A stretch of 64,000 nucleotides of DNA from Flavobacterium sp. Root420. Its GTDB lineage: Bacteria; Bacteroidota; Bacteroidia; Flavobacteriales; Flavobacteriaceae. Under the pieces are notes generated by a model that searched no databases, was not told the DNA's origin, and saw nothing but the letters and a program-made list of their open reading frames with translations. Of the stretch, positions 28,856 to 39,789 are shown one piece after another (position 1 is the stretch's first letter; every line of letters starts with the position of its first letter). The stretch lies in assembly GCF_001427905.1 (NCBI RefSeq), contig NZ_LMEF01000001.1, positions 372,394 through 436,393 of the forward strand, written 5' to 3'. A program made the position numbers and the translations under genes.

Positions 28856-28899
28856 ATGACATTTATCATTTTATGCCTTAGTATGAAGAAGTACTTTTG
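28856..28899 (+). promoter_or_regulatory. hemN promoter with FNR-like site
   Basis: ATGACATTTATCAT (28856-28869) is an imperfect FNR-type palindrome. The -7 element TACTTTTG lies at 28892-28899. The site centre (28862.5) is 36.5 bases upstream of the last base of the element, which puts it near -41.5 from the expected start. The same geometry is found at ccoS. Confidence 0.72.
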
Positions 28900-28920
28900 A
28901 TAAATCCAAAATACTTTTTT

Positions 28921-30285
28921 ATGAAAATCTCATTGATTCAGAAATACAATGTTCCAGGTCCAAGGTATACCAGTTACCCAACAGTTCCATACTGGAATGA
29001 AGCTGGATTTTCACAAGAAGAATGGGTCGAATCATTTCAAAAAGCCTTCTCAGAAAGTAATTCTCAAAACGGAATTAGTTTATATATTCATCTGCCATTT
29101 TGCGAAAGTATGTGCACTTTTTGTGGTTGTAATAAACGAATAACAAAAAATCATTCAGTTGAAGAAATTTATATAAAAGCACTCCTAAAAGAATGGAGTT
29201 TGTATTGTAGATTATTACCTGAAAAACCTTTTATCAAAGAAATTCATTTAGGTGGCGGGACTCCAACATTTTTCTCAAAAAATAACTTAGAACATCTTAT
29301 CAATGGTATTTTTACTTTTGCCAATAAAGCTGATAAATATGAATTTAGTTTTGAAGGACATCCAAATAATACAACTTACGAACAACTTCAAAAGTTATAT
29401 GGTTTAGGCTTTCGCCGAGTAAGTTTTGGCGTTCAGGATTACGCCGAAAAAGTGCAAAAAGCGATTCACAGAATTCAACCATTTCATAATGTGGCAAAAG
29501 TAACTTTTTGGGCTAAAGAAATTGGATATACCTCTATTGGTCATGATATCATTTTTGGTTTACCTTTTCAAACAATTGATGATGTAATAGACACAGTTGA
29601 AAAAACAAATTCATTAAAACCAGACCGGTTAGCCTTTTACAGCTATGCGCACGTGCCCTGGATAAAAGGAAATGGACAACGTGGATTCAATGAAGAGAAT
29701 CTCCCAAAAGATGCTGAAAAACGAAAATTATACGAAACCGGAAAACAATTACTTTCTAAAAATGGTTACCACGAAATTGGAATGGATCATTTTGCTTTAC
29801 AATCAGATAGTTTATATAAAGCAACAGAAAACAAAGAATTACATAGAAATTTCATGGGATATAGTGCTTCAAAAACACAGCTTATGATTGGTTTAGGTGT
29901 ATCGTCTATAAGTGATAGCTGGTACAGTTTTGCTCAAAACACAAAAAACCTGGAGGATTATTACCAACTGTTAGAATGGGACAAATTACCTATTGTAAAA
30001 GGTCATATTTTAACTGATGAAGATTTAATCATAAGAAAACATATTTTGAATTTAACCTGTGAATTTGAAACATCGTGGGATAATGAAATGCTCTATTTTG
30101 AAGAACTTCCTAGTGTCTTAAAAGATTTAAAGGAAATCGAAAAAGATCAATTAATTGTAATCGAAGAAAATAAAATTAGAATTACAGAAGCCGGAAGACC
30201 ATTTGTTCGAAATATTTGTATGGCTTTTGATTTACATCTAAAAAGAAAATCACCGGAAACGAATTTGTTCTCGATGACTGTTTAA
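28921..30285 (+). CDS. hemN: Oxygen-independent coproporphyrinogen III oxidase
   Basis: 454 residues from the ATG at 28921. The in-frame TTG eight codons upstream lies in the promoter. It is a radical-SAM enzyme converting coproporphyrinogen III to protoporphyrinogen IX without oxygen. The iron-sulfur motif is C61-x3-C65-x2-C68-x-C70 (FCESMCTFCGC). Other marks are YNVPGPRYTSYPTVPYW at the N-terminus, HLGGGTPTF, SFGVQD and a C-terminal HemN domain. An FNR-like site upstream ties it to low-oxygen growth, alongside the adjacent cbb3 oxidase genes. Its stop overlaps the stop of the convergent SafE-like gene by four bases. Confidence 0.94.
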   Translation: MKISLIQKYNVPGPRYTSYPTVPYWNEAGFSQEEWVESFQKAFSESNSQNGISLYIHLPFCESMCTFCGCNKRITKNHSVEEIYIKALLKEWSLYCRLLPEKPFIKEIHLGGGTPTFFSKNNLEHLINGIFTFANKADKYEFSFEGHPNNTTYEQLQKLYGLGFRRVSFGVQDYAEKVQKAIHRIQPFHNVAKVTFWAKEIGYTSIGHDIIFGLPFQTIDDVIDTVEKTNSLKPDRLAFYSYAHVPWIKGNGQRGFNEENLPKDAEKRKLYETGKQLLSKNGYHEIGMDHFALQSDSLYKATENKELHRNFMGYSASKTQLMIGLGVSSISDSWYSFAQNTKNLEDYYQLLEWDKLPIVKGHILTDEDLIIRKHILNLTCEFETSWDNEMLYFEELPSVLKDLKEIEKDQLIVIEENKIRITEAGRPFVRNICMAFDLHLKRKSPETNLFSMTV

Positions 30286-30989
30286 CGGCAATTAGGAGTT
30301 CCCTGCACAAACAAACTCATATTAGAAGGAGAAACATAAGGAATTCCTAAACCAAGGCCTCTAAGAATAAACAGAACTCCAATAATGATGGCAACGTAAG
30401 GGATAGCTTTTTGAATTCTATTTCGAAAGGGTAGCTTTATTAAAGAGTGAATATAAACAACGATCGTCATTAATGGCATATTCCCCAATCCGAACAATAA
30501 CATATACAAAACACCAAAACCAGCGCTCTGCGTCGCGATTGCCCCAAATAAAGCAACATAAACCATTCCGCATGGCAAAAATCCGTTTAATAATCCAATT
30601 GTAAAAAGGGATTTATAACTTCTATTTTTAAATTGGCTACCTAAACGTGATTTAGTTTTTGAAATGATTTTGTAAACAGGTTTTGAAAAATTGTATTTCG
30701 CAAACATTTTCTCCGGGATCAAAACTGTTATTATCATAGCTACACCAATAAAAATTGACATTTTTTGTTGTAGTCCAGCGAGGAAAAAACCTCTTCCTAA
30801 TAATCCAAAAATTAATCCTATTGTGGCATAAGCTGTTAATCGCCCTATGTGATAAGTAATAATTTGAGTAACCTTTTTAGCCTCATTCTGATGATCTACC
30901 GGCAACATCATAGCAATTGGACCGCACATTCCGATGCAATGCAAACTACTTATAAGACCTAATATAAAAGCAGAATACAACATATGCAA
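30282..30989 (-). CDS. SafE/TauE-like membrane protein linked to cbb3 oxidase
   Basis: A 235-residue membrane protein with about six helices. It contains LHCIGMCGPIAMMLP near the N-terminus and GLLNGFLPCGMVY in the middle. These paired Cys/Pro helix motifs are typical of the SafE/DsbD-like group found at the end of cco operons, where a role in metal delivery or maturation is suspected. Its ATG follows fixH with no gap. It shares a four-base TTAA with the stop of hemN. Confidence 0.82.
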   Translation of the reverse strand: MHMLYSAFILGLISSLHCIGMCGPIAMMLPVDHQNEAKKVTQIITYHIGRLTAYATIGLIFGLLGRGFFLAGLQQKMSIFIGVAMIITVLIPEKMFAKYNFSKPVYKIISKTKSRLGSQFKNRSYKSLFTIGLLNGFLPCGMVYVALFGAIATQSAGFGVLYMLLFGLGNMPLMTIVVYIHSLIKLPFRNRIQKAIPYVAIIIGVLFILRGLGLGIPYVSPSNMSLFVQGTPNCR

Positions 30990-31439
30990 TTAATTTACGT
31001 AAATAACCTCTTTAGTTAAATACTTTGTTCCGTTATATTGCCATTCTATATTAACATCCCAACGACCTTTAACCAATTTGTCTTTAGGAATTACTAAAAC
31101 TGAGTTGGTCAATGCTATTGGAGTATTAAAATCAAACTTCTTGTTAGAAGGACGATACAATAAAATATTTCCTTTTATTTTATTACTTTCGAACGTAGTA
31201 GGAAAGACAACTTTTACACCATCTTTGTTATATGTAATAGAAGGTTTATGCTGTAAATCGTGCGCATTTTGAATCCTGGCCATTTCTTCCTGAAAATGTG
31301 AGTCATGTTTGTAATATTCCTCAACAACCAAATCATTATCATATTTGCTGTTCGATTGTACCTCAAATACAAAGTACAATATAAATGACATGAATAGTGC
31401 AAAAGCAATGACTATTCCGGTTCCCCAATTTATTTTCAT
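30990..31439 (-). CDS. FixH-family protein
   Basis: A 149-residue protein with one N-terminal membrane helix (INWGTGIVIAFALFMSFILYFVFEV) and a periplasmic domain with LVVEEYYKHDSHFQEEMAR and GRWDVNIEW, both FixH/CcoH features. It supports cbb3 oxidase assembly or stability. It lies between ccoG and the SafE-like gene in the cco operon. Confidence 0.85.
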   Translation of the reverse strand: MKINWGTGIVIAFALFMSFILYFVFEVQSNSKYDNDLVVEEYYKHDSHFQEEMARIQNAHDLQHKPSITYNKDGVKVVFPTTFESNKIKGNILLYRPSNKKFDFNTPIALTNSVLVIPKDKLVKGRWDVNIEWQYNGTKYLTKEVIYVN

Positions 31440-31453
31440 AATGTGGTATTATT

Positions 31454-32872
31454 TTAATTAAAACTTCGCGGACCTAAAAAGTTTGTTGTAGTACTTTCCA
31501 ACAATTCATTGCCATTGTAAATACCAATTTTAACTTTTGTTTTATCACTTTCTAAGAGAACTCCATTAATTTCTATAAATAAAGTTCCCTGAGAAATTCC
31601 TTCTTTTTGTATTTTAAAATGTTCCTTACCAACATTTCTAATTTCACCTTTCTGATTAATCAATTCAAAATGAATATCATTGTAATCTTTCATTGTTTTG
31701 TTTACAATTTTATAGGTGTAAACATTACTTATCTTATCTCCCTTATGTTGAAATAATTGACCTGGCAAACGCAGAATAATAGCTTCAACATTGGTTCGTA
31801 AAAATAACATTCCAACAAAAACACTTAACAAAATGAATAAAACAGCTGTATAACCTTTCATTCTGGCTGTGAATTTAAAAGGTTCCTTCTTAGCTATTTC
31901 ATCTTCAGAAGCATAACGAATAAGTCCTTTAGGCAAACCCACTGTTTCCATTATAGTATCACACTCATCGATACAAGCGGTACAATTGGTACATTCTAAT
32001 TGTGTTCCGTTTCTAATATCAATTCCCATTGGGCACACATGTACACATTGATGGCAATCGATACAATCTCCTTTTCCTGTTATTGTTCTATCTTCCTTTT
32101 TATTAAATTTAGCACGTCCTGTTTCTTTTTCTCCACGGACAAAATCATAAGCTACATTAATAGATTTATTATCTAAAAGTACACCTTGTAATCTACCGTA
32201 GGGGCATGCGATTATACAAACTTGCTCCCTAAACCAAACGAAAACAAAATAGAAAACACTAGTAAAAATCAGAAGTGCTATAAAATTGCTTGATTGTTTA
32301 ATTGGTCCTTCTTCAATCATTAAAAATAATGCATCGCTACCAACTAAATAGGCTAGAAAAATATTAGCAATACCAAAAGAAATTAGAAAAAAAACAGTCC
32401 ATTTGACAAGTCTTTTTCGGATTTTCTCTGCATTCCATTCCTGACGTGCTAAACGTGACTGTGCACCACGGTCGCCATCAATCCAATATTCAATTCGACG
32501 GAAAACCATTTCCAGAAAAATAGTCTGCGGGCAGATCCATCCACAAAATATTCTGCCAAAAACAACTGTAAACAAAATGATAAAGACAATACCTACCAAC
32601 ATGGATATTACAAAAAGATAGAAATCCTGAGGCCAAAACGGGAAACCAAAAATATTAAAACGACGCTCCATAACATTGAACATCATAAATTGGTTCCCAT
32701 TTATTTTTATAAACGGATTTGCAATTAAAATTGCCAATAAAATATAACTGACAATTTTGCGATACTCATAAAACTTACCAGATGGTTTTTTAGGGAAAAT
32801 AAATTTTCGATTACCACCTTCATCAATAGTTCCAATGGTATCTCTAAAAGCCTCGTCTGGTAAATTTGACAT
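31454..32872 (-). CDS. ccoG: Cytochrome c oxidase accessory protein CcoG
   Basis: A 472-residue polyferredoxin-like membrane protein, proposed to reduce copper for cbb3 assembly. Helices occur around 38-58, 85-110, 160-180, 195-215 and 340-360. Cysteine motifs are FCGWICPQTIF, CIIACPYGRLQG and, in the ferredoxin domain, GDCIDCHQCVHVCPMG plus CTNCTACIDECD. A C-terminal IG-like domain follows. Length is normal. Position in the operon is between ccoP and fixH. Confidence 0.93.
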   Translation of the reverse strand: MSNLPDEAFRDTIGTIDEGGNRKFIFPKKPSGKFYEYRKIVSYILLAILIANPFIKINGNQFMMFNVMERRFNIFGFPFWPQDFYLFVISMLVGIVFIILFTVVFGRIFCGWICPQTIFLEMVFRRIEYWIDGDRGAQSRLARQEWNAEKIRKRLVKWTVFFLISFGIANIFLAYLVGSDALFLMIEEGPIKQSSNFIALLIFTSVFYFVFVWFREQVCIIACPYGRLQGVLLDNKSINVAYDFVRGEKETGRAKFNKKEDRTITGKGDCIDCHQCVHVCPMGIDIRNGTQLECTNCTACIDECDTIMETVGLPKGLIRYASEDEIAKKEPFKFTARMKGYTAVLFILLSVFVGMLFLRTNVEAIILRLPGQLFQHKGDKISNVYTYKIVNKTMKDYNDIHFELINQKGEIRNVGKEHFKIQKEGISQGTLFIEINGVLLESDKTKVKIGIYNGNELLESTTTNFLGPRSFN

Positions 32873-32877
32873 GATTC

Positions 32878-33816
32878 TTATTTTTTAACTGCTGTACTAT
32901 CTGCTATTTTAACTGTGGTCTCTTTTTTAGTAACACTTTCATCGACCCAAATTTCTCCTTCGGGTTCTTTTGGATCTTTAGGTCCGCTTCCCTGTAAAGA
33001 CAAAATATAACTGGCTACTTTTTGAATGTCTTTTGGTTTCATACCGTTTGTTTTCCAGGAAACCATTCCTTTACCATCACGTCCTCCGTTGGTTATAGTA
33101 TGGAAAATATTTTTGATTCCTCCACCCAAAATCCAATGATCATCTGTTAAGTTTGGGCCAATTTGTCCACCGCCATCTGCTCTGTGACAAGCTGCACAAT
33201 TAGTAGTGAAAATTTCTTTACCAGCTTCTAAACTTTCTTTATCAGTAAGCAAAACAACTGTTTTTTCATCCATTAAATCCGGAGCGGTTTTTAAGTACTC
33301 ATCCACATCTATTTTGGCCTGGGCCATTTCTTTTTTGAGTTCCATTTCCTGATTATCGGCTCCAAGAATTTCAAAACGAACTAAATAAATGACGCTAAAG
33401 ATTATAGAAATGTAAAATAAATAAACCCACCATGGCGGCAAATTATTATCTAACTCTTTAATTCCGTCATAATCGTGATGCAGCAACAGATCACCTTCTT
33501 TCTCTATTGGCTGTGTTTTAGTAAGTTTCTGCATGAGCTCCTTAAACCAGGTGCTCTCTTGTAAACTTAGACTATTTTCATAATCTAATTTTGCTCTCTC
33601 TTCAGCTGTCATTAATTGATACATCAGTCGATTAACGGCATTCAATGTGATTTCGATCGCAATAAGGATAAACAGAAATACAAACAAAAAAACAGAAACC
33701 ATCGGATACTTTATAAAAGCCGGCTTATCACCGGAATCTATACAATATTCCATCAAAGCAAAACCAATAAAAAAAATCAATGGTACTCGTACATATGCTG
33801 GGAAAAATTTTTTCAT
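32878..33816 (-). CDS. ccoP: cbb3-type cytochrome c oxidase subunit III (mono-haem type)
   Basis: A 312-residue membrane-anchored cytochrome c. Helices lie at about 11-27 and 38-60, followed by the CcoP signature DGIKELDNNLPPWWVYLF leading into another helix. There is one haem c motif, CAACH, with the likely axial Met in GKGMVSWK. Proteobacterial CcoP has two haem motifs, so electron transfer here uses one. The C-terminus is charged. It starts directly after the ccoQ stop. Confidence 0.92.
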   Translation of the reverse strand: MKKFFPAYVRVPLIFFIGFALMEYCIDSGDKPAFIKYPMVSVFLFVFLFILIAIEITLNAVNRLMYQLMTAEERAKLDYENSLSLQESTWFKELMQKLTKTQPIEKEGDLLLHHDYDGIKELDNNLPPWWVYLFYISIIFSVIYLVRFEILGADNQEMELKKEMAQAKIDVDEYLKTAPDLMDEKTVVLLTDKESLEAGKEIFTTNCAACHRADGGGQIGPNLTDDHWILGGGIKNIFHTITNGGRDGKGMVSWKTNGMKPKDIQKVASYILSLQGSGPKDPKEPEGEIWVDESVTKKETTVKIADSTAVKK

Positions 33817-34011
33817 TTATTTGTCTTTTGAAATTACACCAAGTCCTTCATTTAAAGGAATTTCACTCATTTCCTGAATTTTATCTTTTTTATAGGAGAA
33901 TACCCAAAAGCCTAATCCCACAAAAAAGAAAAAGAAAATCAGGAGAGAAAGAATCGGGTAAATTTCTATACCCGATATGTTCTCCATATTATGTTTTATC
34001 TGTTCAAACAT
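33817..34011 (-). CDS. ccoQ: CcoQ/FixQ-type small cbb3 oxidase subunit
   Basis: A 64-residue protein with a single membrane helix (IYPILSLLIFFFFFVGLGFWVF) followed by YKKDKIQEMSEIPL, the usual CcoQ layout. It is encoded between ccoNO and ccoP with gaps of four and zero bases. The role is stabilisation of the oxidase complex. Confidence 0.82.
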   Translation of the reverse strand: MFEQIKHNMENISGIEIYPILSLLIFFFFFVGLGFWVFSYKKDKIQEMSEIPLNEGLGVISKDK

Positions 34012-34015
34012 AGCT

Positions 34016-36205
34016 TTATTTTTTAGCAGTTTCTTTTACTTTAATATCAGTTCCAAGTCTTTGTATATAAGCAATCAGAGCAACAATTTCTCTTTCATTC
34101 ATTGGAACAAACTTCTCACCTTTTGCAGCTGCCTTGTTTTTACTATCTTGGTAGCTTTTTACAAAATCAGGATCATTTTCTAAACTCTTCTCTATTGATA
34201 AAGCCTGCGTTCTCAATGTTTTTTGAGCGTTTGCAATTTCATCAGCTGTATACGGAACACCCAGTGAAACCATGGCCTGCATTTTCTTTTGGGTCAATGA
34301 TACATCCATTGCTTCGTTATCAAATAACCATTTATAACCCGGCATGATCGAACCTGCTGAGATACTTTGAGGATTCCAAAAGTGATTAAAATGCCAATTA
34401 TCATTGTATTTTCCTCCAACTCTTAGTAAATCCGGACCAGTACGTTTTGATCCCCATAAAAATGGATGATCGTATACAAATTCGCCAGCCTTGGCTTGTG
34501 GCCCGTAACGTTCAACCTCACTTCTAAATGGACGAACTGATTGTGAGTGACAACCTACACAACCCTCTCTGATATATAAATCACGTCCTTCCAATTCTAA
34601 AGGTGTATATGGTTTTACACTTGAAATAGTTGGAATATTAGATTTTACTATTATTGTAGGCACTATTTGAATAACGCCTCCAATTAAAATAGCAACTGTT
34701 GCCAGAATGGTTAACTGAATTGGTTTTCTTTCTAACCATGTATGGAATTTTTCACCATTAAGTCTGTTACTGCTTATTCTTTGTAACGCTGGAGCCTGAG
34801 CCAGTTCATCTTCAATAGTTTCACCTGCTCTTACCGTCATTATAATGTTATAAACCAATGTCAGCATCCCAATCAGATATAAGGTACCTCCAATAGCTCT
34901 CATCCAGTATAAAGGCATAATTGCCGTAACTGTTTCAAGGAAGTTTCCATAAGTTAAAGTCCCATCCGGATTAAATTGTTTCCACATAGAAGCTTGTTGA
35001 AAACCTGCTACGTACATTGGCACCGCATATAAAATGATTCCTAAAGTTCCAATCCAGAAGTGGAAATTGGCTAATTTCTTTGAGAACAAAGTACTTTTTG
35101 TCATTCGGGGAATCAACCAGTAAATAATACCAAAAGACATGAATCCATTCCACGCTAAAGCTCCAACGTGTACGTGCGCAATAATCCAGTCTGTATAATG
35201 TGCGATAGCATTTACATTTTTTAAAGAAAGCATTGGTCCTTCAAAAGTTGCCATTCCGTACCCTGTAATTGCCACTACAAAGAATTTTAAAACCGGTTCT
35301 TCACGAACTTTATCCCAAGCACCTCTCAAGGTTAAAAGTCCGTTAATCATACCTCCCCAAGATGGCGCAATAAGCATAATTGAAAATACAACACCTAAAT
35401 TCTGAGCCCAATTTGGTAAAGCGGAATATAATAAATGGTGAGGACCAGCCCAGATGTAAATAAATATTAAAGACCAAAAGTGGATAATAGATAATCTGTA
35501 AGAATATATAGGTCGATTTGCTACCTTAGGAATAAAATAATACATTAACCCTAAAAACGGAGTTGTCAGGAAAAATGCAACAGCATTGTGACCATACCAC
35601 CATTGCACCAAAGCATCCTGAACACCTGCGTAAACTGAATAACTTTTTAAAGCCGAAACTGGCAATTCAATATTATTGAAAATATGTAAAACTGCAACCG
35701 TTACGAAAGTGGCTAAATAAAACCAAATTGCCACATACAAATGTCGTTCTCTTCTTCGCAACATTGTACCAATCATATTGATTCCCATTACTACCCAGAT
35801 TAATGCAATCGCAATATCAATAGGCCATTCTAACTCTGCATATTCTTTTGAAGAAGTATACCCTAATGGTAATGTTATTGCTGCGGCAACTATAATGAGC
35901 TGCCAACCCCAAAAATGCAGGTTACTCAGAAAATCACTATACATTCTGGCCTTCAGCAATCGTTGAAGCGAGTAGTACAAACCTGCAAAAAAGGCATTAC
36001 CTACAAAGGCAAAAATAACAGCATTTGTATGTAACGGTCGTAAACGTCCATAACTCAGCCATGAAATCCCATCCGTTATGTTGGGAAAAAGGTACATAAC
36101 CGCCAGGGTTAGCCCCACTAACATACCTACTACTCCAAAAAGGATAGTGGCATAAATGAATTTTTTTACAATTTTGTTGTCGTAATAAAACTGTTCCATT
36201 TCCAT
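34016..36205 (-). CDS. ccoNO: cbb3-type cytochrome c oxidase, fused subunits I and II
   Basis: A 729-residue fusion. The CcoN part (to about residue 480) is a 12-helix haem-copper oxidase with RPLHTNAVIFAF, WWYGHNAVAFFLT, the HH pair in AGPHHLLYSA and HVHVGALAWNG among its metal ligands. A linker and membrane anchor near 500-520 lead to the CcoO cytochrome c part with C549-V-G-C552-H553, the region GSKRTGPDLLRVGGKY and the Met-containing SIMPGYKWL. Fusion of CcoN and CcoO is usual in Bacteroidota. This is the oxygen-reducing core, made for low oxygen. Confidence 0.95.
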   Translation of the reverse strand: MEMEQFYYDNKIVKKFIYATILFGVVGMLVGLTLAVMYLFPNITDGISWLSYGRLRPLHTNAVIFAFVGNAFFAGLYYSLQRLLKARMYSDFLSNLHFWGWQLIIVAAAITLPLGYTSSKEYAELEWPIDIAIALIWVVMGINMIGTMLRRRERHLYVAIWFYLATFVTVAVLHIFNNIELPVSALKSYSVYAGVQDALVQWWYGHNAVAFFLTTPFLGLMYYFIPKVANRPIYSYRLSIIHFWSLIFIYIWAGPHHLLYSALPNWAQNLGVVFSIMLIAPSWGGMINGLLTLRGAWDKVREEPVLKFFVVAITGYGMATFEGPMLSLKNVNAIAHYTDWIIAHVHVGALAWNGFMSFGIIYWLIPRMTKSTLFSKKLANFHFWIGTLGIILYAVPMYVAGFQQASMWKQFNPDGTLTYGNFLETVTAIMPLYWMRAIGGTLYLIGMLTLVYNIIMTVRAGETIEDELAQAPALQRISSNRLNGEKFHTWLERKPIQLTILATVAILIGGVIQIVPTIIVKSNIPTISSVKPYTPLELEGRDLYIREGCVGCHSQSVRPFRSEVERYGPQAKAGEFVYDHPFLWGSKRTGPDLLRVGGKYNDNWHFNHFWNPQSISAGSIMPGYKWLFDNEAMDVSLTQKKMQAMVSLGVPYTADEIANAQKTLRTQALSIEKSLENDPDFVKSYQDSKNKAAAKGEKFVPMNEREIVALIAYIQRLGTDIKVKETAKK

Positions 36206-36207
36206 AA

Positions 36208-36399
36208 TTATACTTGTTTTTCTTCGGTTGGTGAATTATTATTCTGAGAAGTAATTTTGGTTTCATCGTCAAAAAGCATTCTGACTGAAGGCGTATAATC
36301 ATCATCGTACTGTCCGGATTTGACAGCGATGATAAAGGCAATAAAGAAGCCGATTGCTACGAAAATACTAACTGAAATTAATAGATAAATTACACTCAT
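36208..36399 (-). CDS. ccoS: cbb3-type oxidase assembly protein CcoS
   Basis: A 63-residue protein with one N-terminal helix (VIYLLISVSIFVAIGFFIAFIIA) and the CcoS motif SGQYDDDYTPSVRMLFDDE. It is required in other bacteria for cofactor insertion into the oxidase. First gene of the structural operon, two bases before ccoNO, behind an FNR-like promoter. Confidence 0.88.
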   Translation of the reverse strand: MSVIYLLISVSIFVAIGFFIAFIIAVKSGQYDDDYTPSVRMLFDDETKITSQNNNSPTEEKQV

Positions 36400-36417
36400 A
36401 CCTTAAATTTATGTTAA

Positions 36418-36462
36418 CAAAATTACTTGGTTACAGGCATTTAAAATATGATAATTATCATA
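36418..36462 (-). promoter_or_regulatory. ccoS-ccoNOQP promoter with FNR-like site
   Basis: ATGATAATTATCAT (36448-36461, extended to a 16-base palindrome at 36447-36462) resembles the FNR box TTGAT-N4-ATCAA. The -7 element TAATTTTG reads 36425-36418 on the minus strand. The centre-to-element distance is 36.5 bases, the same as at hemN. Confidence 0.8.
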
Positions 36463-36514
36463 GTGAAGGAGTTATGCTAAATTTAGTAAAAAAAGGTTTA
36501 CAAATTACCTATAT

Positions 36515-38902
36515 TCATTTTAAATTACTATTACTGAAATAGTTAGACATCAACGTAACAAAACTCACAATAGTTATTGTACTTAAAGGCATAATAATCG
36601 CTGCCACCAAAGGAAGCAGATTGCCAGTAACTGCAAAAGAAAGTCCAACTACATTATAAAGCAATGATAAAACAAAACTCATTTTGATAATAAAAATTGA
36701 TTTTTGAGACAATTTTAAAAAATAATTAAGTCTGGAAAATTCACTCGCATCAAGAATTGCGTCACAAGCGGGAGAAAAAACATTCACATTTTCAGAAATA
36801 GATATTCCAACATTACTTTGTGCCAACGCACCGGCATCATTTAAACCATCGCCCACCATCATTACATTCTGACCATTTTGCTGTAAGTTTTTAATAAACT
36901 CCAGTTTCTGTTCCGGCTTCTGATTAAAAATAAATTCAGTGCCTTTTGGTAAAATTGCTTCAAGGTTAGCTCTTTCTCCATCGTTATCTCCTGAAAGCAC
37001 CTTTAAATTATAATTTTTATTAAGCGATAAAAATAACGTTGCAAGGCCATCTCTATATTGATTTTGAAAATTGAATCTTCCATAATACTCCTCGTCAATT
37101 TTAATATGCAATGCCGTTTTCTCTATTTCAGAAGAATCTAAATCTGGACTTCCAACAAATACCGCTGAACCAATTTGGATTGATTTATTTTCGATTGAAG
37201 CTAAAATCCCTTTTCCTGTTATCTCTTCGAAATCATCAATTTTAATTCGTTTTGAATTCGGTAAAAAATCATACAACATGCGGCTTAAGGGATGGTTTGA
37301 GGCGCGTAATACATTTTTTATGAGTACATAATTTTCATCAGAAATGATTTTTCCTTCATAAACGATATTTGACTTTTTATTTGTTGTTATGGTTCCTGTC
37401 TTATCAAAAACTATGGTATCCACTTTTGCGAATTGTTCGATGACCAATGCATTTTTAAGATACATTTTCTGCTTGCCCATAATTCTCAGAATATTTCCGA
37501 AAGTAAAAGGAGCGGTAAGTGCCAAAGCACACGGACAAGCAACGATTAATACAGCTGTAAAAACATTAAAAGCAGTATTAGCGTTAATAAAAACCCAGTA
37601 CCCAAATCCTGCAAAAGCAATTAATAATAATATAGGTGTAAAATAACGACTAATTTTGTCTGTAATCGTTTTGTGTTTTTGAATAACATTTTTTTGAAAA
37701 ATTTCATTACTCCATAACTGTGTCAGATAACTTTGCGAAACAGAATGCACTACTTCCATTTCAATCACTTTCCCGATTTGTTTTCCACCAGCAAATACCT
37801 TGTCCCCTGATTTTTTAGTTATTGGTATTGCTTCTCCGGTAACGAAACTATAATCAATTTCAGCTTTTTCACTAATTAAAATACCATCAACCGGAATTAA
37901 TTCCTGATTTCTAATCAATAATCTATCACCTTTTATAACATCATAAATTGGCAAACTTTCTTCGGAGGTATCGGTGTTAATTTTAGTAACAGCAATCGGA
38001 AAATAAGATTTAAAATCTCTTTCGAAACTTAAAAAACTATATGTTTTTATTTGGAACATTTTTCCGAGCAGCATAAAGAAAACCAAACCTGTTAAACTGT
38101 CAAAAAAACCAGGACCATAATTCATCACAATATCAAAAGTACTTCGGACAAACATTACAATAATCCCTAAAGCAATTGGAATATCAATATTCAACATTCG
38201 TGATTTGATACTTTTATATGCGGAAATATAATAACCACTGGCAGAATACAAAAAGCTTGGCAGCGCTAATAAAAATATTAAAATTCTAAAAAACGGTTTG
38301 TAATTGTCCAGCCAAAATTCCTTTATTTCGAAGTACTCCGGAAACGATAACAGCATAATATTTCCAAAACAAAAGAAAGCCACTCCAAGTTTGTAAGTCA
38401 AACTTCTGTCTACATTATTTTTACCTGTTTCGTAGTTTTCTAAACTAATATAAGGTTCATAACCAATGGAACTTAAAAGATAAACAATAGATTTGAGTGA
38501 GACAAGATCAGAATTATAAGTAATTCGGACTTTTTTTTCAGGAAAATTAACTTGTGAAGTACTAATTCCGGTTTGAATTCTGTTTAGATTTTCGAGAATC
38601 CAAATACAAGAACTACAGTGAATGTGAGGAACATTTAAAGAAACAATAGCTGTATTTCCTTCTTGAAATTCTAATATTTTTGAGAGAATGACTTCGTTCT
38701 CTAAAAAATCATATTTACCCTGAATGTCTTGCGGAGTAGCACCTGGAGATTTTTCAAAATCATAATAACAAGTCAAATCATGAAGACTGAAAATTTCATA
38801 AACTGTTTTACATCCATTACAGCAAAAATTTTTCCCATCAAAATTGATTTCTTCATTTTTAGCAATGGTCAGGCCACAATGAAAACAACCTTGCTCATTC
38901 AT
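36515..38902 (-). CDS. ccoI: Copper-transporting P1B-type ATPase for cbb3 oxidase
   Basis: 795 residues from the ATG at 38902. An upstream in-frame TTG lies within the promoter. Domains in order: a Cys-rich N-terminal segment (CFHCGLTI and CCNGCKTVY), a metal-binding domain with HCSSCIWIL, eight membrane helices with the CPC motif (ACPCALALTAPF), the phosphorylation site FDKTGTIT and the hinge GDGLNDAGAL. It delivers copper for assembly of the oxidase. It is transcribed ahead of ccoS but with its own FNR-like promoter. A 115-base gap containing the ccoS promoter separates them. Confidence 0.93.
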   Translation of the reverse strand: MNEQGCFHCGLTIAKNEEINFDGKNFCCNGCKTVYEIFSLHDLTCYYDFEKSPGATPQDIQGKYDFLENEVILSKILEFQEGNTAIVSLNVPHIHCSSCIWILENLNRIQTGISTSQVNFPEKKVRITYNSDLVSLKSIVYLLSSIGYEPYISLENYETGKNNVDRSLTYKLGVAFFCFGNIMLLSFPEYFEIKEFWLDNYKPFFRILIFLLALPSFLYSASGYYISAYKSIKSRMLNIDIPIALGIIVMFVRSTFDIVMNYGPGFFDSLTGLVFFMLLGKMFQIKTYSFLSFERDFKSYFPIAVTKINTDTSEESLPIYDVIKGDRLLIRNQELIPVDGILISEKAEIDYSFVTGEAIPITKKSGDKVFAGGKQIGKVIEMEVVHSVSQSYLTQLWSNEIFQKNVIQKHKTITDKISRYFTPILLLIAFAGFGYWVFINANTAFNVFTAVLIVACPCALALTAPFTFGNILRIMGKQKMYLKNALVIEQFAKVDTIVFDKTGTITTNKKSNIVYEGKIISDENYVLIKNVLRASNHPLSRMLYDFLPNSKRIKIDDFEEITGKGILASIENKSIQIGSAVFVGSPDLDSSEIEKTALHIKIDEEYYGRFNFQNQYRDGLATLFLSLNKNYNLKVLSGDNDGERANLEAILPKGTEFIFNQKPEQKLEFIKNLQQNGQNVMMVGDGLNDAGALAQSNVGISISENVNVFSPACDAILDASEFSRLNYFLKLSQKSIFIIKMSFVLSLLYNVVGLSFAVTGNLLPLVAAIIMPLSTITIVSFVTLMSNYFSNSNLK

Positions 38903-38923
38903 AATTTGTTTTTTTAACTTTTG

Positions 38924-38968
38924 CAAAGTTTATAAATTGCAAAGGACTATAAATATGATATTTATCAC
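38924..38968 (-). promoter_or_regulatory. ccoI promoter with FNR-like site
   Basis: ATGATATTTATCAC (38955-38968) differs from the ccoS site at two positions. A -7-like element TAAACTTTG (38932-38924, one base longer than consensus) follows. Its last base is 37.5 bases from the site centre. The site lies in the divergent region shared with the FNR-like regulator gene. Confidence 0.68.
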
Positions 38969-39079
38969 GTTTTAATAAATTATGATTCTAATTTAGGAAA
39001 TAAAAAAAGGCAAATTACAGTCGTATATTATTTCTTATCTTTTTATGTAATTATTATGCTTTAAGACATGAATAATGGT

Positions 39080-39087
39080 TAATTTTG
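39080..39087 (+). promoter_or_regulatory. -7 promoter element of FNR-like regulator gene
   Basis: TAATTTTG matches TANNTTTG and lies 15 bases before the ATG. The position where an FNR site would be expected (about 39044-39057) holds only a weak, asymmetric TATGTAATTATTAT. Confidence 0.45.
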
Positions 39088-39102
39088 TATAAAATTTTTG
39101 TA

Positions 39103-39789
39103 ATGAATAAATGTGACCAGTGCATCGTGCGACAACTAACTTCTTTACAAACCTTAAATAAAGAAGAAGTAATAAAATTAGCCAATAGCAAAACCACTTA
39201 TAAAATAAAAAAAGGTGAAGCTATTTTTGAAGAAGGCGAAGTAACAAATGGTGTTTTTTGCATAAAAGACGGTGTTGGTAAACTTTCTAAACTAAGTGCT
39301 AACGGAAAGGACCAAATTGTAAAATTAGTCAAATCAGGAGAGCTTTTAGGACAGCGTTCAATGATTAGCAATGAGCCTGCCAACTTAACTGCAAAAGCAG
39401 TAGCTGACATGGAAGTTTGCTTTATTCCGAAATCTGAAATTATTGGTTTTTTCAATAACAACAACCAATTTTCTATGAAATTGATGCAGACCGTTTGTGA
39501 AGATTTGAAAGAATCTGAAAATGATAAAATTGCATTAGTTCAAAAAACGGTAAAACAACGATTAGCCGAAACTTTACTTTACCTGCATGATTTCTTTGGA
39601 GAAAACCAGGACCAAACATTAAAAGTACAGCTAACCAGAGAAGAATTAGGCGGAATGATTGGAACTGCTACGGAAAGCTGCATCCGTTTATTATCTGATT
39701 TTAATAAATTGGGGTTAATAGAATTGGTTGGCAAAAAAATCATCCTTAAAGATGTAAAAGCCTTAAAAAAAATTGCTGATCAATTATAG
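39103..39789 (+). CDS. FNR-like Crp-family regulator of microaerobic genes
   Basis: 228 residues from the ATG at 39103. A TTG six codons earlier is less likely. The N-terminus reads MNKCDQCIVRQLTSL: Cys4 and Cys7 align with FNR Cys20 and Cys23, but the place of Cys29 is Thr13. Cys106 in MEVCFIPKSE aligns with FNR Cys122. A cNMP-like barrel, a dimerisation helix and a C-terminal Crp helix-turn-helix (LTREELGGMIGTATESCIRLL) follow. It sits next to ccoI and near three FNR-like sites, so it is the likely activator of ccoI, ccoS and hemN. Its stop overlaps mazG by six bases. Confidence 0.85.
   Translation: MNKCDQCIVRQLTSLQTLNKEEVIKLANSKTTYKIKKGEAIFEEGEVTNGVFCIKDGVGKLSKLSANGKDQIVKLVKSGELLGQRSMISNEPANLTAKAVADMEVCFIPKSEIIGFFNNNNQFSMKLMQTVCEDLKESENDKIALVQKTVKQRLAETLLYLHDFFGENQDQTLKVQLTREELGGMIGTATESCIRLLSDFNKLGLIELVGKKIILKDVKALKKIADQL

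Follow-up and report, generated by a model that had tools for sequence, protein, structure and literature searches.

How the genes for a cbb3 oxidase and for oxygen-independent heme synthesis are brought under common control in a member of the Bacteroidota, a phylum in which the oxygen control of respiration seems to be poorly described, is the question raised by a 64,000-nt stretch of the Flavobacterium sp. Root420 genome (hereafter the window; host genome 5.6 Mb). The window carries, in this order, hemN, a cbb3 operon, ccoI and, divergent from ccoI, a gene for a CRP/FNR-type regulator. The answer that we favor, with a probability of roughly 0.7, is a low-oxygen respiration switch in which an FNR-type regulator with a cluster on four cysteines (C4, C7, C53 and C106) activates ccoI, the ccoSNOQPGH operon and hemN; the binding, the activation of the three promoters, the cluster and its ligands are all predicted from sequence. 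Upon a drop in oxygen the regulator would assemble its cluster and dimerize, bind palindromes near ATGAY-A-WWT-RTCAT centered at -41.5, and contact RNA polymerase in a manner that would compensate for the -33 contact that the Bacteroidota sigma factor does not make. With ccoI, ccoSNOQPGH and hemN activated, cbb3 oxidase, metal loading and heme supply would rise together. The sensor would most likely be an O2-labile [4Fe-4S] cluster on C4, C7, C53 and C106, that is, an FNR with its third ligand shifted from the N-terminal loop to a beta-strand. The proposed switch finds independent support in F. psychrophilum, where, according to the available text of PMC9723704, cbb3 and heme genes are up under oxygen limitation.

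A shared palindrome at the hemN, ccoS and ccoI promoters

The preliminary description of this DNA reported FNR-type palindromes upstream of hemN (ATGACATTTATCAT, 28856..28869, forward strand), ccoS (ATGATAATTATCAT, 36448..36461, reverse strand) and ccoI (ATGATATTTATCAC, 38955..38968, reverse strand), with centers at 36.5, 36.5 and 37.5 bases, respectively, from the last base of the -7 element, and both the positions and the spacings were confirmed in the sequence. The -7 elements are TACTTTTG for hemN (28892..28899, forward strand), the form and position of which match the published map as far as given in the text of PMC9723704, TAATTTTG for ccoS (36425-36418, reverse strand) and a -7-like element, TAAACTTTG, for ccoI (38932-38924, reverse strand), in which three bases, one of them extra, separate TA and TTTG, so that its TA lies at the same distance as in hemN and ccoS. 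In the F. psychrophilum promoter map TAnnTTTG occupies -12 to -5 (PMC9723704, in the portion available), which puts the palindrome centers at -41.5 and lends support to the class II placement suggested earlier. The three sites thus appear to sit at the class II activator position, as FNR sites do, and the predicted leaders of the three genes measure 14-17 nt (start codons checked).

Conservation of the palindromes at orthologous promoters had been set as a test, and it was assessed in two sets of loci. The first comprises 80 loci of Flavobacterium and close kin, all except three of which carry the name Flavobacterium and the regulators of which are 86-95% identical to that of the window; the palindrome is kept at ccoI in 79 of the 80 and at ccoS in 78, with neither present in L076 and the contig of L073 stopping before the ccoS palindrome. 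For the second, one genome per genus was taken from family f1, two loci (L163 and L252, duplicates in sequence or place) being excluded from these counts though retained among the 89 family loci discussed below, and the pattern TGAY-N4-RTCA was sought within about 300 bp upstream. Here the ccoI palindrome was found in 78 of 80 promoters; in 68 of these TTTG follows the 14-mer at exactly 30 nt, in 7 it is displaced by one base and in 2 it lies elsewhere, and TTTA takes the 30-nt position in 1. At ccoS the palindrome was found in 50 of 51, with TTTG at 30 nt in 28, one base off in 2 and elsewhere in 2. All of the hemN promoters read, covering 30 of the 55 hemN-bearing genomes and including the window, have the palindrome with TTTG 30 nt downstream. 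Repeats of ATGAT arise easily in an AT-rich genome, and palindromes of this kind might be accidental or non-regulatory, for instance terminators or RNA hairpins; what speaks against such an explanation is the conservation of a fixed spacing across genera while the spacer sequence varies, together with the controls: of 243 control windows (300 bp each, within ccoI) 1 contains the 12-mer pattern, and of 2580 earlier spacer positions 31 begin a TTTG. Conservation and control windows rule out a chance, terminator or RNA role, which we regard as having practically no prospect of being correct: the palindromes are not chance occurrences.

Since the search pattern presets TGAY and RTCA, only the other positions of the site carry information. 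Base counts were taken over 76 ccoI sites, after a filter that drops sites with T as first base or A or G as last; 49 of them start with A, 23 with C and 4 with G, all 76 end in T, and 69 have A at position 6. Before filtering, T is the first base in 2 of 79 ccoI sites, and the half-site at ccoI is mostly ATGAY or CTGAY, not TTGAT. A T-rich stretch follows the ccoI site at about -34 to -30, presumably where an activator-independent promoter would have its -33 box.

Within the window, ATGAY-N4-ATCAY has 7 matches at 5 places, compared with 0.9 matches in shuffled sequence, and the two places beyond hemN, ccoS and ccoI fall within open reading frames (ORFs). Across the own genome, TGAY-N4-RTCA at the exact hemN and ccoS spacing to TTTG occurs at 21 places versus 2 for a reversed control, 16 of the 21 lying outside ORFs of at least 100 aa; spacings longer by one or two bases yield 23 places versus 11, a set that includes the ccoI site and neither hemN nor ccoS. 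Candidates for a wider regulon in this genome are genes for a CBS protein (L116), a flavoprotein reductase (L118), a universal stress protein (USP; L121), Hsp20 (L124), a NarK-like transporter (L127), YceI (L129) and a globin (L131), but these are only suggestive, since paralogues of the regulator may own those sites. A further palindrome at -41.5, with a TAACATTTG box, precedes a gene (L115, at C2:200039) for a protein of at least 492 aa that had no match in Pfam or NCBIfam.

The regulator gene itself has a likely -7 element, TAATTTTG, at 39080..39087 on the forward strand. Class II autoregulation through the ccoI palindrome was considered and rejected, because the palindrome lies about 125 bases from this element, which is too far. 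In four other loci (L182, L183, L188 and L206) the gap between ccoI and the regulator gene is about 100 bp and the palindrome immediately precedes a TATTTTTAC element on the regulator strand, an arrangement that could indicate autorepression in genera with such a gap.

Profile matches identify the genes behind these promoters, ccoN/O, ccoP, ccoG, ccoS and ccoI, the members expected of a cbb3 oxidase locus, all being found. On the forward strand, hemN (28921..30285) encodes an oxygen-independent coproporphyrinogen III oxidase (TIGR00538, 418 bits, cut-off 325). The operon on the reverse strand begins with ccoS (36208..36399; TIGR00847 and PF03597, above cut-off) and continues with a fused ccoNO (34016..36205; NF011053, 1339 bits, cut-off 1080), ccoQ (33817..34011; PF05545, under its gathering score), ccoP (32878..33816; PF14715 and cytochrome c domains, with TIGR00782 under its cut-off), ccoG (31454..32872; TIGR02745, above cut-off), ccoH (FixH; 30990..31439; PF05751) and, at its end, a gene for a DsbD_2-type membrane protein (30282..30989; PF13386). 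The gene for the metal P-type ATPase for cbb3 assembly, ccoI, spans 36515..38902 on the same strand (PF12156, PF00122 and PF00702 above cut-off; start codon checked).

The regulator and its cysteines

The regulator gene (39103..39789, forward strand) encodes a protein with a cyclic nucleotide (cNMP)-type beta-roll and a CRP helix-turn-helix (PF00027 and PF13545). In line with the earlier observation that an FNR-like regulator adjoins ccoI, it lies within 500 bp of ccoI and divergent from it in 80 of the 89 loci of the family. Its AlphaFold2 (AF2) model has a pLDDT of 87.9 and aligns to A. fischeri FNR (5e44) with a TM-score of 0.80; other CRP-family structures match the model better than 5e44, the best of them being a P. 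gingivalis structure. In a tree, the Bacteroidota regulators adjoin proteobacterial FNR and FnrL, as would be required of an FNR, and share a node with those of E. coli, Burkholderia and Sphingobium (support 100/87), in a topology that is midpoint-rooted, with few outgroups, some long branches and a bootstrap that had not settled. FNR recognizes TTGAT half-sites through E209, S212 and R213. The regulator of the window departs from this on both counts: the recognition residues E191, I194 and R195 are, among others, invariant in all 94 aligned homologues, with I in place of S212 of E. coli FNR, and this replacement fits a half-site whose first base is seldom T. The recognition residues thus fit the site. 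Alignment A1 excludes L226, L171, L252 and L163.

The preliminary reading of the regulator had overlooked both a missing ligand and another cysteine that is invariant. Three of its cysteines, C4, C7 and C106, align with C20, C23 and C122 of E. coli FNR, and the fourth, C53 (codon at 39259..39261, forward strand; the proposed relocated ligand), aligns with A70. The FNR ligand set of C20, C23, C29 and C122 is not reproduced, as the C29 position is never Cys in 110 sequences of a separate set, where it is S, N or T throughout, nor in the 89 family loci, 82 of which have N there and 7 S. Position 53 is Cys throughout both sets, and C4, C7, C53 and C106 are invariant in 94/94 aligned regulators and 89/89 family loci. 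With an N-loop Cys defined as any Cys within the 13 residues following CxxC, the combination of CxxC, C53 and C106 without an N-loop Cys was found in 81/81 members of the Flavobacterium group (window included) and in 88 of the 89 loci of family f1, the remaining one adding an N-loop Cys. Among 35 loci of other Bacteroidota, 15 have only CxxC, C53 and C106, and 13 have the N-loop Cys as well; 3 have the N-loop Cys and no C53, 1 has neither, 1 has C53 and C106 but no CxxC, and 2 have none of these cysteines. Taken together, 184 of the 185 Bacteroidota proteins that have CxxC and C106 and lack the N-loop Cys carry C53, L321 being the exception.

Among the outgroups, 10 plasmid-borne proteins and that of E. 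coli, the FNR proteins of E. coli and Burkholderia and the FnrL of Sphingobium have the N-loop Cys and no C53; a Bernardetia protein has CxxC, N-loop Cys, C53 and C106 together; a Paraclostridium protein combines CxxC and C106 but lacks both the N-loop Cys and C53; a Microbacterium protein has C106 only, and three alphaproteobacterial proteins have none. C53 and C106 occur without CxxC in three sequences (L320 and the Bacteroides and Tunicatimonas proteins). By these cases, the link between C53 and CxxC is not strict. Even so, classical, five-cysteine and present cysteine sets all exist. In the AF2 model C53 lies in strand 50-56 and C106 in strand 103-109, which we take, from jelly-roll topology, to be neighbouring strands, and the alternation of hydrophobic residues suggests that both side chains should face out of the beta-roll. 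We infer from these alignments that the fourth ligand of an O2-sensing [4Fe-4S] cluster has probably moved to C53.

Two other roles for these cysteines were weighed. C53 could be structural, with the cluster held by three cysteines and the Ser, Asn or Thr at the C29 position. The residues found there in the family regulators (82 N and 7 S) and the occurrence of C53 without CxxC, both in the three sequences with C106 named above and alone in 7 of 50 loci of a sister family, would agree with this, and the A. ferrooxidans FNR offers a precedent for Ser (PMC6659574, in the text available). The near-perfect co-occurrence of C53 with CxxC and C106 where the N-loop Cys is missing (184/185) argues the other way and makes a structural C53 unlikely. 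Asn and Thr are poor cluster ligands, which also counts against it. Somewhat less probable still is a thiol/disulfide switch or a zinc site in place of an iron-sulfur (Fe-S) cluster: the cluster is itself a prediction, and AF2 models no cofactor, yet the regulator groups with FNR in the tree and three of the four cysteines align with E. coli FNR ligands as given in the available part of PMC6659574.

In the sister family f2, for which the loci of 50 of 97 genomes were read, a homologue keeps E..IR and has ccoI within the same short stretch in 49 of the 50 loci. None of the 50 retains C4 or C7; 7 still have C53 only, 3 have C106 only and 40 have none, so that no f2 locus read keeps more than one of the four cysteines. 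The 25 f2 rows included in the tree form one clade beside f1, inside the Bacteroidota group. In L304 and, judged by sequence, in many other f2 loci, the palindrome next to ccoI directly adjoins the -7 element of the regulator gene itself, and in five loci the ccoS palindrome is 18, not 30, nt from TTTG; the loci with altered placement include L302, L304, L305, L306 and L369. Such placement looks repressor-like. In further f2 loci, L352, L357 and L361 among them, the spacing is still 30-31, and in some the palindrome is missing; a change of role, if there is one, is therefore not uniform.

Sites without the regulator and the RR-CRP fusion

Several results weigh against the proposal that the FNR-type regulator with four cysteines controls these promoters. 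The ccoI -7 element is one base off; in other genera TTTA replaces TTTG at 30 nt in 18 of the 51 ccoS promoters; and the counts from the 80 near loci are not independent, because these loci are close relatives. The best NCBIfam match of the regulator is NF008365 (Fnr, E. coli subfamily), at 85 bits for a cut-off of 228, and the Paraclostridium protein and the three sequences with C53 and C106 but no CxxC belong on this side as well. In the own genome, the CRP/FNR paralogues L003 and L006 carry E..IR helices, and L003 (C30:176590) has an N-terminal CxxC-x4-C, a Cys at the C106 position and the helix EEQVIR. Finally, the sites persist where the regulator is missing. In a sample of 149 genomes, an FNR match at E <= 1e-30 was lacking in 54, of which 20 were examined for cco genes; together with four more genomes whose matches were all at paralogue level, these 20 make up a set of 24 FNR-less f1 genomes. 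Close ccoNO is present in 14 of the 24, and in these the ccoS palindrome is kept in 13 of 14 and the ccoI palindrome in 11 of the 11 readable promoters. The site is thus independent of the regulator's presence, and is, as far as these promoters tell, common to, or older than, this one regulator. Of the earlier proposal of one oxygen-responsive activator, the site, spacing and gene content have strong backing from conservation, and the idea of a single activator does not hold for the family as a whole.

A second candidate is a protein of about 350 aa in which a response-regulator receiver is fused to a CRP domain with E..IR (RR-CRP). It is present in 13 of the 14 FNR-less genomes with close ccoNO, the exception being G108, a genome that is 82% complete, and a close RR-CRP is found in 1 of the 10 FNR-less genomes without close ccoNO (p = 7e-5 for the 24 genomes, uncorrected for relatedness). 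In the 30 loci read, out of 66 genomes with an RR-CRP match, the recognition helix is GIATESLIR or near it and always E..IR, a PAS histidine kinase is beside RR-CRP in 30/30, and a USP in 29/30. In L197 the module (L197:2241-6175) lies between ccoI and FNR, in the order ccoI, kinase, RR-CRP, USP, FNR, and in L170, L172, L179 and L185 RR-CRP and USP are beside FNR. A module of PAS histidine kinase, RR-CRP and USP also adjoins the FNR gene at L252:2179-6175.

These results, with the persistence of the palindromes in FNR-less genomes, would be explained if the palindrome served mainly to bind a different CRP-family regulator, RR-CRP foremost, with FNR as a partner or autoregulator. The explanation fares worse where FNR is present. 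Among the 149 genomes, 91 have FNR (E <= 1e-40) and 61 a close RR-CRP (E <= 1e-100); both are present in 31, FNR only in 60, close RR-CRP only in 30 and neither in 28. Close RR-CRP is therefore absent from 60 of 91 FNR-bearing genomes, and the sites in genomes with FNR but no close RR-CRP are kept at 51 of 53 ccoI and 32 of 33 ccoS promoters, compared with 27/27 and 18/18 where both regulators occur. The only RR-CRP of the own genome is a diverged one (39% identity, helix PETVSR, with S replacing I), and FNR therefore stays the best candidate in the window. On balance we hold a leading role for RR-CRP or another such protein to be improbable as an account of these palindromes, about on a par with a structural C53. 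In other genera the same cis-element is probably read also by the kinase-linked RR-CRP, either in place of FNR or beside it, and from its distribution it can be inferred that RR-CRP can stand in for FNR in the Flavobacteriaceae.

Two observations concern the distribution of FNR-like proteins. L003, L432 and L433 represent another FNR-like type, marked by CxxC-x4-C and the helix EEQVIR, in which the C106 position is Cys and C53 is absent; in the own genome it coexists with the type found in the window. In L173 (G084) an FNR orthologue is present and no ccoNO match was found at E <= 1e-60.

Relation to known oxygen sensors

Control of cbb3 oxidase and hemN by FNR is a known theme in Proteobacteria, where E. 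coli FNR and Anr, FnrL and FnrN act from the class II position at -41.5 on targets such as these. The regulator of the window resembles this group in its CRP fold, its N-terminal CxxC, its C122 equivalent and the counterparts of E209 and R213; it differs in having no Cys at position 29 and an invariant Cys at position 70, in I for S212, in ATGAY for TTGAT and in the TAnnTTTG promoter of the Bacteroidota. Several low-oxygen sensors reportedly converge on cbb3 genes in rhizobia, where fixNOQP is controlled by hFixL/FxkR/FixK and FnrN; by comparison, response regulator and CRP output are one protein in the Flavobacteriaceae. A likeness in ligand set is seen in the FNR of Acidithiobacillus ferrooxidans, in which C20, C23 and C122 are kept and C29 is missing, and for which an Fe-S cluster of greater stability in air was reported; its authors suggest Ser29 as ligand and do not favor Cys40, and the available text mentions no Cys at position 70, unlike in the regulator studied here (PMC6659574). 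A structural review of 2026 distinguishes, in its accessible part, two cluster-binding FNR types, with an N-terminal cluster in Gram-negative and a C-terminal one in Gram-positive bacteria (PMC12937710). In Bacillus FNR the cluster likewise has another site than in the classical protein, and that site differs from the one proposed here in lying in the C-terminal domain, with three cysteines (same source). Flavobacteriales CRP/FNR homologues have been predicted to sense carbon (PMC8510549, in the part available). A literature search, which covered open-licence sources only and is weak evidence for that reason, found no description of the present cysteine set or of the shared site.

More tentatively, and at a little less than even odds, the Bacteroidota may hold a third FNR-type sensor architecture (CxxC, a Cys in strand 50-56 and the C122 equivalent), which would have arisen by ligand exchange through five-cysteine forms, would have been dismantled in one family, and in the Flavobacteriaceae would share one frozen class II cis-element, or swap it, with the PAS-kinase/RR-CRP system. 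What the analysis supplies is a candidate regulon, a consensus site, the geometry of promoters in a phylum that has a -7 element of its own, and, for a classic Fe-S sensor, a new ligand set that can be tested. An exchange of regulators under one fixed site would, moreover, be a natural experiment in how a network changes its sensor.

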